Below, piece by piece: positions 10,561 to 33,426 of a stretch of 64,000 bases of DNA. Each line of letters starts with the position of its first letter. The first letter of the stretch is position 1. Under the pieces are notes generated by a model. The model was not told where the DNA came from and did not search any database. It was given only the letters and a program-made list of their open reading frames with translations. The translations under genes and the position numbers were made by a program. The stretch lies in NCBI RefSeq assembly GCF_000969885.1, contig NZ_CP009501.1, positions 558,001 to 622,000 on the forward strand, given 5' to 3'. This stretch comes from Methanosarcina thermophila TM-1 (lineage in GTDB: Archaea; Halobacteriota; Methanosarcinia; Methanosarcinales; Methanosarcinaceae).

Positions 10561-11277
10561 TAGGGCCTCTGAGTAATTGTAGGATGAATCCTGAGTAAGA
10601 TTCAGGGTTGGGTAATAGAAGGCAGGTCTGGGTATTACCTGCCTGTGTAATTGTGATTTGCTCTCGAATTTTACAGACTTCTGTCTGCTTTTCGAAGCAG
10701 GGAATCTGTTTTGAGGTTGTGTTTGTAGGTCGGCTTACGGGACGCGTTGAGCCTTCTTAGTTTTTAGCTCCTCAGGCGCTCGTAATCAATTTAGCCTTTT
10801 CAGTTCTGGCAAGAGAATTGAGGAAGAGGAACTTATTAAATTACTTTTAGGTTCCCCCCAAGTTTTCCATGATGTACCTGCTCGACTTAGTATATAAGCT
10901 TTTCGGGATCCTCCTGAGCTTATCATTATGGGATAAGACAACTGCCTGGAAGAAAACTCATCTAAGAAGTTCCCTGTCAAAGCTCTGGCTGGATACCAGA
11001 ACTTTCCTGGCTTTTGCTGTCGTTAACCTCTAACAGTTTAAGCCGATAAAAAGCCCCAGATTAAGGAAATAAACCATTAGAGAGCATGGATATAAGCTGA
11101 AAAATCCGACTTGCCTTTTTAGGATAATTGTAATTTCTTTCAGCCAGTCAGGAGAAGTTCTGATTTTGATGGGCTTTTGCTGAGATTATTACGTTCTGGA
11201 GCGAAGAAAGATATGATTTCAGGGATCAGGGGAATCTAAGCGAAACTTTACCCGTCAGGCTCATGCATAAAAGAGAG
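10561..11277. other. Intergenic, hairpins only
   Basis: No gene recognised. GGCAGGT (10621-10627) and ACCTGCC (10637-10643) form a hairpin. The - strand open frame at 10786-10980 is serine-rich without recognisable features. Confidence 0.4.
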
Positions 11278-11309
11278 GTGAAGATTTTAAATCTTCACTT
11301 TTGTTTTTT
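11278..11309 (+). terminator. Hairpin with T-tract
   Basis: GTGAAGATT (11278-11286) pairs perfectly with AATCTTCAC (11290-11298) around a 3-nt loop, followed on the + strand by a T-rich tract to about 11309. It lies 30-60 bp past the 3' end of the leftward surface-protein gene, so it may act in both directions. Confidence 0.5.
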
Positions 11310-11338
11310 AATATTCTATTGCTGCTTATAATTCAATT

Positions 11339-12883
11339 TCACGGCTTCATTTTTCTGTACAGAAACAGGACAAGTAGGGAGCTAAGCCCGTAAATGGTTT
11401 CAAACCCTGGGGCGGTTGCCTTTTTCTCAAGCGCTATCTCAACATTTGCATTGTTTATTGTGCCAGAATTTTCTACGTTAAAACCCCTGGCATCTGACCC
11501 GGAAGGCTGTGAATCAGCCGAACCGCCAACTATTCCTCCCTCGCTCTTACCGGTTATTGCAAAGAATGGAAATTCTAGGGGCTGTGCTGTGAAATAGAGG
11601 AAGTTGTTATCTTCTCCAGTCAGATTTACGGGCAGCTCTTTCCATTCCCCAGCACTATACGTGTTGAGCTTGATTGAATTCCAATTAATGTTCTTATCCT
11701 CAAGCCAGGATTTTTCGACCTTAAAGCATACTACAGGATTCTCAATATTAGCTGGGGTCGCATATTCTCCGTCCCCAATCCAGATATTGAAATACCTGTA
11801 GACCTCATCTGAAAGCGGCTCTGAAACAAGTGAGGAATTTGCTTTTAACATCTCAACTACAGCAGTCGTCTTACCCACAGTCTTTTTTGAATTGAATGTC
11901 AAATAAGCAACGCAGGTTTCGTTCCTCTCAAAGTCAAACTTCACCTCTTTGTCGTCTGTGATAAAGGTCTCTGAGATCTCCTCACTCTCTACGTTTCTTG
12001 CAGGTTCGGGTGATACATCTGTCGTGCTTTCATCGCTGTTGTCTTCGTTGATACTTGTGGAGTTGTTTCTGCTGGTATTATCAATCTGAAAACCTGTTAC
12101 CGAAAGTATGGGCTTCTCAGGTTCGGGTACTGAGACAAGTGGCAATTCATCAGAACAGATGCTGTCTGCGAACCTGTATGCAAAATCTGCAATTCCGTCT
12201 TCGTTAGCATCGACTGCAGTTTCTGAAAACCCTGTACCATCAGGTTCTGCCCAGAAATTACCTCCAAGGCAAGGACCACCGACAATATTTACGCCTTCAG
12301 TCTTCATAATATTGTAGGCGTTTCCGGCTCCATTTTTGATATTTGCATTGACAGTGTTGTTGAAGTAGTTATTAAAAACCAGGTTGTTGTCGCTCCTGGG
12401 GCAAACAAATAGGCCGCTAACGCCATTTGAGGAAATTACATTACTTGAAAGTGTATTGCCTTTTGAGAGCAAAAGATAAACCCCATAACCATTATTGAGG
12501 ATTTTGTTGTACTCAAGGACGCAGTTATTACACTCAGAAAGATAAATTCCTGCATAACTATCCATAGCCCCTGTAATACCAAGCCCGCTAATCTCCACGT
12601 TATTAGCCTGCAAGGTAATTACATGATCACTTGAGCTCGCCGCTACAATTATTGTATCATCAGGATTCCCGGATTCCGAGCTTATTACAAGGTTATCCTT
12701 GTTTACATTTACATTCTCGGTATACGTTCCGGGTTTTAGGAGAATCACATCACCTGAGACTGAATTATCCACTGCGGTTTGTATTGAATCTCCAGGCTGG
12801 ACGTAAATCTCAGCTGCAGTTCCAATACCCGAGCATAATGTTAAGAGGAAAAAAGCTGCCAGTAAAATGATTAATCTGCTCAA
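11339..12883 (-). CDS. Beta-helix surface protein with PGF-CTERM anchor
   Basis: Secreted protein of about 514 residues. A hydrophobic N-terminal signal segment (LIILLAAFFLLTLCSG) precedes a right-handed parallel beta-helix (CASH/NosD-like; repeated phrases such as GDVILLKPGTYTENV and NCVLEYNKILNNGYGVYLL). A Ser/Thr/Asn-rich linker follows, then a PGF-pre-PGF domain with a YFNIWIGDGEYATPANIENP segment. The C-terminus is a PGF-CTERM signal: APGFE, a hydrophobic helix, then the basic tail RKMKP. That signal is cut by archaeosortase A and replaced by a lipid anchor, placing the protein on the outer surface. I prefer the TTG at 12883 as start: GGGG lies seven bases upstream, and the ATG six codons earlier would precede that site. 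Confidence 0.88.
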   Translation of the reverse strand: MSRLIILLAAFFLLTLCSGIGTAAEIYVQPGDSIQTAVDNSVSGDVILLKPGTYTENVNVNKDNLVISSESGNPDDTIIVAASSSDHVITLQANNVEISGLGITGAMDSYAGIYLSECNNCVLEYNKILNNGYGVYLLLSKGNTLSSNVISSNGVSGLFVCPRSDNNLVFNNYFNNTVNANIKNGAGNAYNIMKTEGVNIVGGPCLGGNFWAEPDGTGFSETAVDANEDGIADFAYRFADSICSDELPLVSVPEPEKPILSVTGFQIDNTSRNNSTSINEDNSDESTTDVSPEPARNVESEEISETFITDDKEVKFDFERNETCVAYLTFNSKKTVGKTTAVVEMLKANSSLVSEPLSDEVYRYFNIWIGDGEYATPANIENPVVCFKVEKSWLEDKNINWNSIKLNTYSAGEWKELPVNLTGEDNNFLYFTAQPLEFPFFAITGKSEGGIVGGSADSQPSGSDARGFNVENSGTINNANVEIALEKKATAPGFETIYGLSSLLVLFLYRKMKP

Positions 12884-12949
12884 TTTAATACCCCGGTACA
12901 TCCAAAGTAAGGGATTTACTTCGATTAGTTATCCGGAAATTCATATAAA

Positions 12950-27911: not shown

Positions 27912-28014
27912 TTAACTTGCATATATTTATTACTTCTGAAATACAGTGCCTGTAATTATATTCTTGAAAGATCTAGAAAGCACAAATTCTATACCTTTAT
28001 CACTGGTGATTAAC

Positions 28015-28359
28015 ATGGCAAGAATACTCTCAGAAACAGATATCAGTATTCTGAAAACCGTTGCTCCGGAATGTGAGGGGTATCTCTGTTCGGGCTCGGG
28101 AATGGCTTATCGTTCCATACTCCCTCCCCTGGCAAATCACTATGCGAAAGATGCCCAGGACTTCCTGAGGAGAATAAAGCTGCTATCCAGATATGACTTG
28201 GAATACCTTGTCAGGCTCATTCTATCAGGAGAAGAAAGCCTTGGCTGTGTTCCATTCGAATATATCGAGCTTTTCATCCAGAATGTCTCTGAAAGGCTGG
28301 GTGAGGAAATAGCGGAAAAGGTCAGAAACGCCTACAATACTTCAGAATGTCCTGATTAA
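28015..28359 (+). CDS. Hypothetical protein (114 aa)
   Basis: I do not recognise the family by name. The protein is small, helical and acidic: MARILSETDISILKTVAPEC is followed by GYLCSGSGMAYRSILPPLANHYAKDAQDFLRRI and two further helices. Two cysteines near residues 20-26 could bind a metal or form a disulfide, but the evidence is thin. I start at the ATG at 28015 because GGTGAT lies five bases upstream; the upstream in-frame extension looks non-coding. Confidence 0.65.
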   Translation: MARILSETDISILKTVAPECEGYLCSGSGMAYRSILPPLANHYAKDAQDFLRRIKLLSRYDLEYLVRLILSGEESLGCVPFEYIELFIQNVSERLGEEIAEKVRNAYNTSECPD

Positions 28360-28514: not shown

Positions 28515-29888
28515 TCACGTCCTCCCATATTTATCTTCTAGCCTTTCAATGTCATCCTCACCAAGGTAGTCTCCGCGTGAGACCTCAATGAAAACAAGGT
28601 TTTGACCACCGATGTTTGTAACTCGATGAATCTCATTCACCGGAATATCGACCGAATCTCCGGGAAGAACCCTTATTTTACTCTCGTTTTTAGTTACAAG
28701 CCCCTCTCCGCTGACTATGTACCAGTGCTCGTTCCTATGGGCATGACGCTGGAGTGAAATTTCCCCCTGAGGAAAAACAGTAAGGCTTTTGACTTTATAT
28801 CCGGGCTTCTCCATAAGCACCTCATAAAAGCCCCATGGTCTCTTCTCTTCACGTTTGCGCTTCTCCAGGATGGTTTCATATACTTTTATGTACTCATCCA
28901 CCATCCTGTCAACAGAAAAGTGCTTTTCCGCATGTTCCCTGCAAGCTTTGCGGGATATTGAATCAATATTTTGCACAGCTTCTGCAGCTTCGTCAATGTT
29001 GCTGACCAGAAAACCGGTTTCTCCATTTCGGATGAGCTCAGGCATTGAGCCCCTGTTCATTGCAATTACCGGCGTCCCGCTTGCCATAGCCTCAACAACG
29101 CCAATTCCGAAAGCTTCATCATAATTTATCATGTGCAGTAAAGCATATGCATTCGACAGGAGTTCCTTTTTATATTCAGGGTCAACATGCCCTTCATAAA
29201 TGATCTGATTATTATCTGTATAGGGCTGAACCTCGTTTTCAAAATAAGCCTGATCAGCAATGAAACCGGCTATTCTGAGTTTTCTACCGGTCTTTTTTGC
29301 AACTTCTATTGCTTCCCTTACGCCCTTGTCTCTATGCAGGCGTGATAAAAAGAGAAGATAATCCTGCGGTTTCTCGTTGAAATGGAAGCTCTCTATATCG
29401 ATCCCATGCCGAACCGTTGCTATATAGTCCAGATCGCGACACCTGTAAGCATCACTTATTGACACATAGAAAGTTCTGTTATTGTACTTTTTATAGACAG
29501 GCAGAATTTTCCTTGAAGAAATGCCGTGGATGGTTGTTACGACAGGTGTATCAACAAGTGCGCTGTAGGTCAAAGGAAGATAATCAAAATGGTTATGGAT
29601 TATATCGAATTCTTTTGCTCTTTCGAAGACTTCTGATATGTGCAGGCATTCATACACTTTCACGAGCATATCCTTATCTTCTTCATAAGGTCTCGGAGCT
29701 ACAGCATGAAGTTTCGCTTTGGTGTGAGAATCTGCTGTTGCAAATAATGTAACATCAATTCCCCGTTTTACCAGGCCTTCAGTTAATAAAGACACTATAT
29801 ACTCCCAGGGGCCATACTTTTTTGGTGGTGTGCTCCAGGCAATCGGAGATAACATCGCAACTTTTATACTATCACCCCCCAAATCCAC
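28515..29888 (-). CDS. GT4 glycosyltransferase fused to a cupin
   Basis: Protein of about 457 residues. The first 335 form a GT-B glycosyltransferase (GT4): VAMLSPIAWSTPP at the start, LFLSRLHRDKGVREAIEV in the nucleotide-sugar domain, and EAFGIGVVEAMASGTPVIA as the EX7E-type motif. The last 105 residues form a cupin (RPWGFYEVL, HAHRNEHWYIVSGEG, VNEIHRVTNIGG) closest to type II phosphomannose isomerase/GDP-mannose pyrophosphorylase C-termini. The fusion suggests mannose metabolism. The start is uncertain: GTG at 29888 is canonical, but GGGGGG lies seven bases before an in-frame ATA (29867-29865) exactly at the first beta strand. It is the third gene of the operon. Confidence 0.88.
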   Translation of the reverse strand: MDLGGDSIKVAMLSPIAWSTPPKKYGPWEYIVSLLTEGLVKRGIDVTLFATADSHTKAKLHAVAPRPYEEDKDMLVKVYECLHISEVFERAKEFDIIHNHFDYLPLTYSALVDTPVVTTIHGISSRKILPVYKKYNNRTFYVSISDAYRCRDLDYIATVRHGIDIESFHFNEKPQDYLLFLSRLHRDKGVREAIEVAKKTGRKLRIAGFIADQAYFENEVQPYTDNNQIIYEGHVDPEYKKELLSNAYALLHMINYDEAFGIGVVEAMASGTPVIAMNRGSMPELIRNGETGFLVSNIDEAAEAVQNIDSISRKACREHAEKHFSVDRMVDEYIKVYETILEKRKREEKRPWGFYEVLMEKPGYKVKSLTVFPQGEISLQRHAHRNEHWYIVSGEGLVTKNESKIRVLPGDSVDIPVNEIHRVTNIGGQNLVFIEVSRGDYLGEDDIERLEDKYGRT

Positions 29889-29983
29889 TGATATCCCAGA
29901 CTTAATTTTTATTTTTTAATTTCAACTTTTTATTTTTATTTACTTTTTTATTTTATCTTTATTTACTTTTTAAGTCTTCAGAT

Positions 29984-31018
29984 TTATTTCAATTTCAAGT
30001 ATCCTCTTTTCGGATCGGTAGAGACCTCTATATCCTCTTCAAACCACCTGCAATACTCGTCAGGACACTGTTTCTCAGGACACTGATGTATATATCTCAA
30101 GACATCGTTGATATTTGCAGTAGCCAGGGATACGGATGTATCCGCACTTCCGTAATAAATGCGGAGTTCATCTTCTACAAGAACCCATCCACAGGGAAAA
30201 ACAACGTCGTTGACATCCCCGCTGCGTTCATACATTTCACGCGGTCCGAAAACCCAGCCTTCCGACCTGTGGAGTACTTTTCTGGGATCCTCAAGATCAA
30301 GAAGAGCTAGCCCAAGCCTATAACTTGCTTTAGCCGTTGTCTGGCGTACTCCATGATACATAATTAGCCACCCATCAGGTGTACGCAGTGGCTGCGGGGA
30401 TAATCCTATCTTATTGGCGTCCCACCATCCTCCTTCTCGAGCATATAGAAGAACCTCGTGTTCTCCCCAGTATTTCATATCTGGAGAAAAGGAGATCCAG
30501 ATATTTGCCTTTGCACCGCTTATTAAAGATACGGGCCTGTGAAGCATTGCCCATTTGCCATTAAATCTTACAGGGAAAAGAGCAGCATCTTTATTTTCGG
30601 GAGGCAAAGTAGCTCCTACCCGTTCAAAATTACGGAAATCTTCGGTAAGGGCAAGAGCTGTTAATGGACCAGAATCAGAAAAAGCTGTATATGCTACAGC
30701 CCATTTTCCCATCTCGTCTATATAAGTTATACGCGGGTCTTCAATACCGTATATTTCTTCAGGATAGTTTACAGGGTCCGGAGAAAAAGTTGGCTCTGGG
30801 TCAATTTCCCAGCCATCAATCCCGTTCTCACTTCTTGCAATTGTAAAGTGAGAAAATCCCCTGTGGTCCTCAACACGCACCAGTAACAGGGTTATACCAT
30901 CAACTATCGCAGCTGCAGGGTTAAATACCGAGTGCGCCCTGTAAGGCCAATCGTCAACAGTCAATATAGGATTCTTGCTGCATCTTACAAATAGCTCCCC
31001 ATGGTCTTTCCAGATCAT
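29984..31018 (-). CDS. GH130-family glycoside phosphorylase/hydrolase
   Basis: Enzyme of about 344 residues in the GH130 five-bladed beta-propeller family. Evidence: NPILTVDDWPYRAHSVFNPAA near the start, the catalytic region YGIEDPRITYID, NKDAALFPVRFNGKWAMLHRP, and later WLIMYHGVRQT and DDVVFP-like NDVVFPCGW. GH130 members are phosphorylases or hydrolases for beta-mannosides (Man-beta-1,4-Glc, mannobiose, beta-1,2-mannans). Without a signal peptide it acts in the cytoplasm, as phosphorylases do. The ATG at 31018 has GGAGTGAGAAGG upstream, inside the end of the preceding gene, so translation is coupled. It lies between two glycosyltransferase genes. Confidence 0.9.
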   Translation of the reverse strand: MIWKDHGELFVRCSKNPILTVDDWPYRAHSVFNPAAAIVDGITLLLVRVEDHRGFSHFTIARSENGIDGWEIDPEPTFSPDPVNYPEEIYGIEDPRITYIDEMGKWAVAYTAFSDSGPLTALALTEDFRNFERVGATLPPENKDAALFPVRFNGKWAMLHRPVSLISGAKANIWISFSPDMKYWGEHEVLLYAREGGWWDANKIGLSPQPLRTPDGWLIMYHGVRQTTAKASYRLGLALLDLEDPRKVLHRSEGWVFGPREMYERSGDVNDVVFPCGWVLVEDELRIYYGSADTSVSLATANINDVLRYIHQCPEKQCPDEYCRWFEEDIEVSTDPKRGYLKLK

Positions 31019-31026
31019 ATTCCTTC

Positions 31027-33426
31027 TCACTCCGCCTGATTTGCTGACAAAAGGCTCTTTCTTTTCTCCAGAGCCCCATCATCCAGTTCACCGCTTGTGC
31101 TGGATTGCAATAATGTTGTACTGAAAGCTTTCTTCATGTGTTTGTTTAAAGAAGTTAAAGCCATAAGGAAGCAAATTACGGACTCCGCACCCTGGTTACA
31201 GTTCATACCATCGCGGTTGAGCCCGTCACAGACCGCACCTGTGGAATAATCATACATGACAGCTTGCAAACGATTTCTTCCGAGGAAATATTCAAAAGCG
31301 TATTTTGCAAGCTCAAGATATTTCCTATCACGCACAATTTCGTAAGCCGAAATATAAGCCTGAGTTAGATAACCTGCTTCGATGGGTTGTTGGTCAAAGA
31401 TCGGTTTTTCCCCATTATAGGAATACCAGCCATCGTTTCCAACCACATCAAAAAAGTCACCTTTCCACTGGATCTCAGTGAGAAAATCGAGGGTAGCGAG
31501 CCCAACCTTCCTGTAAGTCCTGTCTTTTGTGTAATCATAAGCCAGTAAAAGGGCTTCACTTAATTTTGCATTGCTATAAGTTACTATAGGTTCAAACCAG
31601 TCCCAATCTTCTTTATGGTTAGCCTCGTACAACTCGACGAGAGAATCAGCGTGGCTGATAAAAATGGATTCAAAGTCGTCTTTACTTGCAAGGGAGTCTA
31701 TGGGCTTCACGGCATCCCTGCGCGAATTAAATACAGGTTCGAATTCATCGACATCCACATCTGTTCTGAGAATTTCATATAAACCGCACATAGTATACGC
31801 TTTTGCTCTGGGATAGCTAAGTTTCTTCATCTCAGGCATGGCTTTGCTTATAAGGGTATGAGCAAGGGTGCGCATATTTCTCGAGAGGTAAGGACAGCTT
31901 ACCACATGCCCAAGCCCGTAAATGGCACGCCCGAGAGTATCTTCGCTGCCCTTTTCATCCAGAAATTCCCTTTTATAACTCATGAAATTATGGAAATGAC
32001 CTGTCTCTGTCTGGGCATGTTCAAGGAAGCTCATGTATGTGGTAATCAACTTCCATAGTTCCTCGGCTTTCTTTTGACTGTCTATCAATTTTGTCAGTGC
32101 AACAAGAGCCCGGCCTACGTCATCAGTACTGTACCCGTGATGGCGAGCCGGTACACCAAGATTGGAATGCTGTATAATGCCCACGTCATCGGTCAACAGC
32201 TTAAGGTAATCAAGTTTTACTTCAGGCAGCTCGTTTGGAAGGAAACTAAATCTGTTTGAGGTGCTGGAATAGGCACTGTAGCTCTTTAAGGCTTTGGTGA
32301 AAACTGTATTATATTGTTTACCTACGTTTTTCCATGTCATCTTCCTGCCAAAGTCATATGCTTTTTTGCGCATATTATCACACTCTTCTGGACTTTCTAT
32401 TAAGTGCAAAAGAGAATCTCTAAAACCATTCGTATCTCCAAAATCAACAAGCAAACCTCGATTATCGGCAAGCATTTCCTGGGCATACCAGTAAGGAGTG
32501 GAAATTATTGCTTTTCCCATGCCAATTGCGTAGGTAAGAGCTCCGCTTACTATTTGTTCTTTGGAGAGGTAAGGAGATACGTAAATATCACTGGCAAGGA
32601 TATACTTACAGAGTTCTTCTTTTTCGACAAATTTGTCATGGAACACTACATTCTTCTCAAGCCCGAGTTCTGAGACCTTGTTCTTGAGGTATTCCCTGTA
32701 TGCTTCTCCAAAGTTCTTTTTAATCATTGGATGCGTGGCACCCAGTATTAGATAAACAAGGTCAGGATACTGGCTTACGACTTCGGGAAGAGCATCAAGC
32801 ATACTCTCGATGCCTTTATTCGGGCTTAGAAGCCCAAAAGTAAGGACAAGCGGAGATCCTTTCAGGTTCAACATTTTTTTATATTTATCGCAGGTATCGA
32901 ACGGATAGTCAGGCACTCCATGGAAGATCAATTCGATCTTGTCAGCAGGAGCCTTGTAAACATCTTTTAACATATCCACTGCAGTCTGGCTCATTACAAT
33001 TAGTTTTTCGGAATACCTTATGAGCTTCTCAGTGGACACCCGATATTCAGGTTCAGGTTCCCGAATTACAGTATGCATCGTGCTTATTACAGGTTTGTTG
33101 ATTCCTGATAGCAGAGCAAAAATGTAGTCTCCTGCGTTTCCCCAGAAAAGCCCAAATTCGTGCTGGAGACATACAATATCAATATCGGACTGATTTATGT
33201 AATCTGCAGCCCGGTAATAATCCTCGATTCTGTCCCTCTGGATTTGAAAAACGACTTCATCAGGATAATTGTGGGTTTCAGAGGGATCGTTCAAAGCGAT
33301 TACCTCACAATGAATATCATTGTATCCCCAGGATACTGAATTTAAAAGATCGGCTGTGAATGTGGCAATCCCACATTCTTTTGGAACATAGGTTCCTATA
33401 AATAACACTTTCAGTTGCTTATTCAA
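31027..33426 (-). CDS. GT4 glycosyltransferase with (alpha/alpha)6 domain
   Basis: Large protein of about 799 residues. Residues 1-375 are a GT-B glycosyltransferase: FIGTYVPKECGIATFTADLL, then VLTFGLLSPNKGIESMLDALP, and SKEQIVSGALTYAIGMGKAIIS as the nucleotide-sugar part. Residues about 400-765 look like an (alpha/alpha)6 barrel: HHGYSTDDVGRALVAL, ETGHFHNFMSYKREFLDEKGSEDTLGRAIYG, IFDQQPIEAGYLTQAYISAY and NQGAESVICFLMAL. Such barrels are seen in epimerases and glycosidases acting on free sugars. The combination with GH130 is seen in bacteria as well. Start is TTG with GGGGG six bases upstream. First gene of the three-gene operon. Confidence 0.88.
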   Translation of the reverse strand: MNKQLKVLFIGTYVPKECGIATFTADLLNSVSWGYNDIHCEVIALNDPSETHNYPDEVVFQIQRDRIEDYYRAADYINQSDIDIVCLQHEFGLFWGNAGDYIFALLSGINKPVISTMHTVIREPEPEYRVSTEKLIRYSEKLIVMSQTAVDMLKDVYKAPADKIELIFHGVPDYPFDTCDKYKKMLNLKGSPLVLTFGLLSPNKGIESMLDALPEVVSQYPDLVYLILGATHPMIKKNFGEAYREYLKNKVSELGLEKNVVFHDKFVEKEELCKYILASDIYVSPYLSKEQIVSGALTYAIGMGKAIISTPYWYAQEMLADNRGLLVDFGDTNGFRDSLLHLIESPEECDNMRKKAYDFGRKMTWKNVGKQYNTVFTKALKSYSAYSSTSNRFSFLPNELPEVKLDYLKLLTDDVGIIQHSNLGVPARHHGYSTDDVGRALVALTKLIDSQKKAEELWKLITTYMSFLEHAQTETGHFHNFMSYKREFLDEKGSEDTLGRAIYGLGHVVSCPYLSRNMRTLAHTLISKAMPEMKKLSYPRAKAYTMCGLYEILRTDVDVDEFEPVFNSRRDAVKPIDSLASKDDFESIFISHADSLVELYEANHKEDWDWFEPIVTYSNAKLSEALLLAYDYTKDRTYRKVGLATLDFLTEIQWKGDFFDVVGNDGWYSYNGEKPIFDQQPIEAGYLTQAYISAYEIVRDRKYLELAKYAFEYFLGRNRLQAVMYDYSTGAVCDGLNRDGMNCNQGAESVICFLMALTSLNKHMKKAFSTTLLQSSTSGELDDGALEKRKSLLSANQAE

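Follow-up and report, generated by a model that had tools for sequence, protein, structure and literature searches.

The window analyzed here, a 64,000-nucleotide stretch of the Methanosarcina thermophila TM-1 genome (positions 558001-622000 of a single 3.13-Mb contig), contains an operon of three consecutive minus-strand open reading frames (ORFs) at 28515-33426 that may encode a pathway for a mannose-containing oligosaccharide. Gene 1 encodes a glycosyltransferase (GT) of family GT4 fused to a helical (alpha/alpha)6 domain, gene 2 an enzyme of glycoside hydrolase family GH130, and gene 3 another GT4 enzyme, fused to a cupin (Table 1). Orthologues of the GH130 gene often begin four codons later, and the ATG at 31018 is a possible alternative start. 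An earlier note on this DNA had named the same three same-strand genes, boundaries and domains, all of which hold, and had described a cytoplasmic system free of signal peptides and transporters. This agrees with our results: no membrane segment or signal peptide is apparent in the three proteins by a crude test (maximum 19-residue hydropathy 1.3-1.6), the operon contains no transporter gene, and in about 85 loci the surroundings of the module show no recurrent transporter family. The lack of a recurrent transporter also rules out a transport or uptake cluster.

Table 1 Genes and domains of the three-gene operon, in window coordinates
Feature	Position	Strand	Length, layout or basis
Gene 1, GT4 with C-terminal domain	31027-33426	(-)	799 amino acids, TTG start
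Gene 2, GH130	29984-31030	(-)	348 amino acids; 4-bp overlap with gene 1
Gene 3, GT4 with PF01050 cupin	28515-29888	(-)	457 amino acids; 95-bp gap to GH130
Gene 1 GT-B domain, GT4-like, residues 1-385	32272-33426	(-)	Pfam PF00534/PF13692; residue counts in 103 homologues
Gene 1 (alpha/alpha)6 domain, residues 386-799	31027-32271	(-)	AlphaFold, Foldseek/PDB, 7tem profile match, conservation
GH130, predicted beta-1,2-mannoside phosphorylase	29984-31030	(-)	Pfam, PDB relatives, residue table, tree
Gene 3 GT4 domain, residues 1-342, TeGSS/Tll1591 relative	28863-29888	(-)	PDB 7fg9 at 2e-84
Gene 3 cupin, PF01050, residues 344-457	28515-28859	(-)	Pfam; TIGR01479 positions 335-467; E. coli CpsB C-terminus

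The GH130 protein matches PF04041 at 185.4 bits against a cut-off of 26, and the beta-mannoside chemistry expected of it is consistent with its key residues (N37, E97-D98, K147, R165, K207, H226 and D297), which include all those of a phosphorylase. The mannose (-1) subsite and catalytic Asp are kept as N37, D98 and D297, at positions taken from published work (PMC4264767). E97 and K147 match the Glu and Lys of all three beta-1,2 phosphorylases with solved structures that we compared, whereas Tyr and Arg occupy these positions in the two solved beta-1,4 enzymes, and this replacement disfavors beta-1,4 specificity. The basic residues R165, K207 and H226, columns that we take, partly on general knowledge, to bind phosphate, align with those of solved phosphorylases, unlike the hydrolases, and their retention rules out a hydrolase. 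The lysine (K199 position in BT3780) is the reported beta-1,2 determinant, and hydrolases lose the basic phosphate residues (PMC4599007); the K199 column was located here from aligned beta-1,2 enzymes, BT3780 itself lying outside the alignment.

A GH130 phylogeny, one of the checks proposed earlier, places the main GH130s of the module in a clade of their own outside the characterized enzymes (Shimodaira-Hasegawa-like approximate likelihood ratio test, SH-aLRT, 99; 34 rows), with the Lys/Glu signature of beta-1,2 enzymes. The window GH130 is thereby set apart from Teth514_1788/1789 and Lin0857, with which it shares the catalytic Asp, the preceding Glu, the Lys read as beta-1,2 and the basic phosphate-site residues. 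Its scores against the NCBIfam beta-1,2-mannobiose phosphorylase equivalogs fall below their thresholds (NF050092, 231 versus 550 bits; NF052550, 195 versus 450 bits), and its top pairwise PDB match is TM1225, a beta-1,4 enzyme. Taken by its active-site residues, the protein is a predicted beta-1,2-mannoside phosphorylase.

Gene 3 is recognized by Pfam as both cupin (110 bits) and GT (93 bits). Its GT domain aligns over its full length with the glucosylsucrose synthase TeGSS (Tll1591; 287 bits), which we count with Nostoc Alr1000 among the closest known systems, and keeps equivalents of the TeGSS catalytic residues Tyr18, Arg179, Lys184 and Glu265 as defined in PMC9909042. TeGSS is a soluble enzyme making oligo-alpha-1,2-glucosyl-sucrose, which cyanobacteria accumulate under salt or heat stress (PMC9909042). 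The two systems differ in that TeGSS has no cupin, the operon has no sucrose pathway gene (no sucrose phosphate synthase is present in it), and the acceptor-site Trp10, which stacks on fructose in TeGSS, is displaced in gene 3, where the aligned residue is Ala with a Trp beside it.

Compared with the isomerase domain of E. coli CpsB, the cupin is 41% identical across 112 residues, and it retains the metal ligands of type II phosphomannose isomerases (PMI) as H382, H384, E387 and H421. It is a predicted PMI, in line with the resemblance pointed out in the earlier note. In ManC, CpsB and AlgA the type II isomerase is joined to a guanylyltransferase, whereas here it is joined to a glycosyltransferase. 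The same genome separately encodes one full guanylyltransferase/isomerase (GMP/PMI) protein and two phosphoglucomutase/phosphomannomutase (PGM/PMM) proteins. The fused isomerase suggests a mannose-derived donor for the gene 3 GT.

Gene 1 departs further from known enzymes. Its N-terminus still matches the Pfam GT1/GT4 profiles despite a deviating EX7E motif: among 103 homologues the first Glu is E, A or D, the second is Ala, Thr or Ser in 101, and an invariant Q291-x-x-S-G-x-L takes the place of the latter. No Pfam family reaches its cut-off on the helical domain, whose (alpha/alpha)6 fold is indicated by an AlphaFold model (mean predicted local distance difference test 79, predicted template modelling score 0.83) and by agreeing Foldseek matches. 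The domain belongs to a family of uncharacterized function with a single solved member, 7tem (YPO2471), which is its closest solved relative by profile (E 2.3e-19) and first in Foldseek rank. Asp-Asp and Asn-x-Gly-Ala-Glu-Ser motifs are common to both, but YPO2471 is described as an exported, standalone Yersinia protein and the operon domain is fused to a GT. Numerous polar or aromatic residues, among them D435, D436, R439, D496, W608, W610, Y617, N619, Q680, D734, N744 and E748, do not vary in 103 sequences, and the site they suggest looks like that of an acid-dependent glycosidase or transferase. The earlier assignment to barrels acting on free sugars finds no support. Although Foldseek lists many structures of the N-acylglucosamine/cellobiose 2-epimerase (AGE) superfamily, the two catalytic His of AGE enzymes are absent: the sole invariant His is H420, early in the domain, and there is none in the later part, where we take the AGE histidines to lie. 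An epimerase or isomerase is thereby ruled out.

The arrangement of the three genes is strongly conserved. Among 393 genomes sampled across the phylum, 20 from the order have the fused GT, and the same 20 have a close GH130 (14 Methanosarcina, four of another genus in the family and two of a second family); genomes of the order lacking one module gene lack all three. Across the Methanosarcina genomes examined the genes keep order and orientation, usually flanked by a metallo-beta-lactamase-fold gene and a 137-amino-acid gene, and the operon is present twice in several genomes and once in G381. Two Methanosarcina genomes (G290 and G120) lack the fused GT, the close GH130 and the GT of the GT-cupin; the only cupin matches of G290 lie in ORFs as long as a guanylyltransferase-isomerase, and G120 shows none. 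The 137-amino-acid protein (window 27946-28359) has no Pfam match, is convergent with the operon and is kept alongside it in most Methanosarcina genomes. Second operon copies at L037, L041 and L076 have a broken GT-cupin gene, with the first ~175 GT residues gone, the rest frameshifted and the cupin still open. In archaeal families beyond (G190:C54, G215:C40, G255:C51, G025:C4 and others), a gene-1-like GT without the helical domain lies a few kb from a GH130. The GT-GH130 pairing extends wider than the fused form.

The earlier note had suggested looking for the same genes in bacteria, and they occur in many bacterial phyla and in Lokiarchaea, which overturns its suggestion of a methanogen specialty and rules out a methanogen-specific pathway. 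Relatives of the fused GT were found in at least 577 stretches among 84,980 species genomes, of which the best 80 were analyzed. They come from Acidobacteriota, Chloroflexota, Planctomycetota, Thermodesulfobacteriota, Myxococcota, Verrucomicrobiota, Pseudomonadota and other phyla, with Anaerolinea thermolimosa (L125) as a cultured example. Outside the methanogen lineages, 59 of 71 loci, bacterial and Lokiarchaeal, have a GH130 within 4 kb of the fused GT, and 68 of the 74 GH130 ORFs in those loci share its strand. With 20 of 20 genomes in the order, these counts bear out the conservation of the genes as a set, whose failure would have undone the earlier proposal. A TeGSS-like GT lies within 6 kb in 24 of the 71 non-methanosarcinal loci, five of them with a cupin. 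Unsupervised clustering of neighboring ORFs returned only four families present in more than four loci, namely the fused GT, GH130, the TeGSS-like GT and a second GT4. Chance would fall far short of explaining how well the arrangement is conserved. A quick tree built from the fused GT groups the Methanosarcinales sequences together (SH-aLRT 100), with Desulfomonile and sequences assigned to Myxococcota as their neighbors (94); phylum assignments are intermixed in this tree, a pattern compatible with lateral transfer.

Not all loci carry the main GH130 type. One alternative, of 310-325 amino acids, has Arg in place of the Lys at the beta-1,2 position, and another, of 480-565 amino acids, mostly has Gln at the K207 phosphate-site position. 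The longer type (L118:10283-11737 and similar loci) carries a long extension at its N-terminus and takes the place of the main type in Acidobacteria, Verrucomicrobia and others.

GH130 paralogues connect the module to reserve carbohydrate. The M. thermophila genome contains two further GH130 genes, 80% and 90% identical to that of the window. The 80% paralogue follows a GH133-type glycogen debranching enzyme (GDE_N + GDE_C; L065:5555-8546) at a distance of 37 bp, and this pair is a two-gene unit in most Methanosarcina genomes and species examined (also L190, L194, L195, L196, L199, L201, L203, L204, L206 and L207), with the paralogue 76-83% identical. The two module-less genomes have a single debranching-enzyme copy, at 69-70% identity, which by identity is nearest to the unpaired copy of other species; the GH130-paired copy is apparently absent from them. 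By gene context, the pairing of a GH130 paralogue with a debranching enzyme is a link to reserve carbohydrate. The third GH130 (90%; L066:7268-8329) stands alone, ~2.4 kb from an opposite-strand debranching-like enzyme of GDE_N_bis type (10758-12941), and the two are seen together again in L191 and L205. At L192:6135-11705 (G381), two nearby GH130 genes lie beside a debranching-enzyme fragment.

GT4 enzymes are retaining and form alpha linkages, whereas GH130 enzymes are inverting and act on beta-mannosides. GH130 therefore cannot simply reverse the GT reactions, and the earlier picture of a simple cycle that makes and recycles the same bond is rejected on stereochemistry. The storage or osmoprotective role that went with it is plausible, because the gene 3 GT relates to TeGSS and GH130 is paired with a glycogen debranching enzyme. 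We hypothesize that the three genes form a cytoplasmic pathway, complete in itself, whose product is a soluble oligosaccharide that contains mannose and acts as a carbohydrate reserve and/or protective solute, a proposal to which we give about an even chance of being right. Nucleotide sugars would be the substrates from which the two GT4 enzymes build an alpha-linked core. Phosphorylases of family GH130 are known to work in both directions, and the enzyme of the operon would reversibly add or remove beta-1,2-mannose through alpha-mannose-1-phosphate and phosphate. The (alpha/alpha)6 domain would probably cut or transfer a bond of the same glycan and so control chain length or ends. The cupin isomerase, with phosphomannomutase, would link the mannose-1-phosphate/mannose-6-phosphate pool to fructose-6-phosphate, and carbon could enter or leave the glycan with no need for an ATP-dependent hexokinase. 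A glycan made in two stages, an alpha core and then beta-1,2-mannose added or drawn down, is the economical reading.

Several points weigh against such a pathway. The closest solved relative of the gene 3 GT uses UDP-glucose, not GDP-mannose, and activity of the gene 1 GT is assumed for a domain whose homologues, as far as examined, lack one of the canonical GT4 glutamates. The GH130 clade of the module has no characterized member, and the linkage may differ between loci where other GH130 types substitute. We found no expression or biochemical evidence for the module in the literature, and we know of no metabolite of this kind from Methanosarcina.

The GTs might instead build a surface chain, as exopolysaccharide or as a lipid or protein glycan, from which GH130 would salvage mannose. 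We consider this unlikely: profile searches do relate the GT4 domains to PimA, MshA and lipopolysaccharide GTs, and a flippase-like ORF lies about 2 kb upstream at L045, but about 85 loci show no recurrent flippase, polymerase, polyprenyl-phosphate transferase, membrane GT or transporter. Proteins without membrane segments, a gene 3 GT whose closest solved relative makes a soluble sugar, and a GH130 paralogue tied to a debranching enzyme also fit this poorly. Degradative salvage, with GH130 turning imported or recycled beta-mannosides into mannose-1-phosphate for GDP-mannose that the GTs consume, is rather improbable. Methanosarcina species are not known for sugar uptake. In favor of this reading, a few bacteria (L078, L088 and L110) have CpsB-like genes close to the module, and salvage was proposed for a Thermoanaerobacter cluster of GH130 beta-1,2 phosphorylases, GT4 and mannose-1-phosphate guanylyltransferase (PMC4264767). 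That cluster, however, also carries an ABC transporter and a GH5, and nothing similar recurs around the module. The conserved position of GH130 beside GH133 in Methanosarcina, and the apparent joint absence of the GH130-paired debranching copy and the module from two species, could also mean that the glycan derives from glycogen or another alpha-glucan, with glycogen-like chains as the substrate of the GTs and the (alpha/alpha)6 domain and with GH130 trimming them or capping them with beta-mannose. We give this little credence, since debranching enzymes are not recurrent near the module beyond Methanosarcina and we know of no mannose-capped glycogen.

The soluble-oligosaccharide pathway that we prefer has a parallel in Leishmania mannogen, a beta-1,2-mannan energy store whose metabolism relies on GT108 transferase/phosphorylases, with turnover by a GH130-like five-bladed propeller enzyme (PMC8950772). 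The partners here are prokaryotic GT4 enzymes, no GT108 is known in the operon (no search for GT108 was made), and a beta-1,2-mannan is here a possible product. It is possible, though less likely than not, that the module represents mannogen metabolism in prokaryotic form. Its product would then be a cytoplasmic reserve or protectant containing beta-1,2-mannose, widespread yet so far undescribed, which the GT4-(alpha/alpha)6 enzyme, GH130 and the TeGSS-like GT make and draw down in many bacterial phyla and in archaea and which stands beside glycogen in Methanosarcina.

Our literature search found no paper on the module as a unit and nothing relevant on mannose oligosaccharides in Methanosarcina, and the module has apparently gone undescribed as a unit until now. 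It adds an uncharacterized (alpha/alpha)6 enzyme family and an atypical GT4 subfamily. If the proposed pathway is correct, a widespread but as yet unnamed storage or protective sugar would occur in methanogens, anaerobic methane oxidizers, sulfate reducers, Acidobacteria, Chloroflexi, Planctomycetes and Lokiarchaea, and GH130 phosphorylases would gain an intracellular role in biosynthesis or turnover beyond degradation alone. Methanosarcina is genetically tractable, so the question is directly testable.

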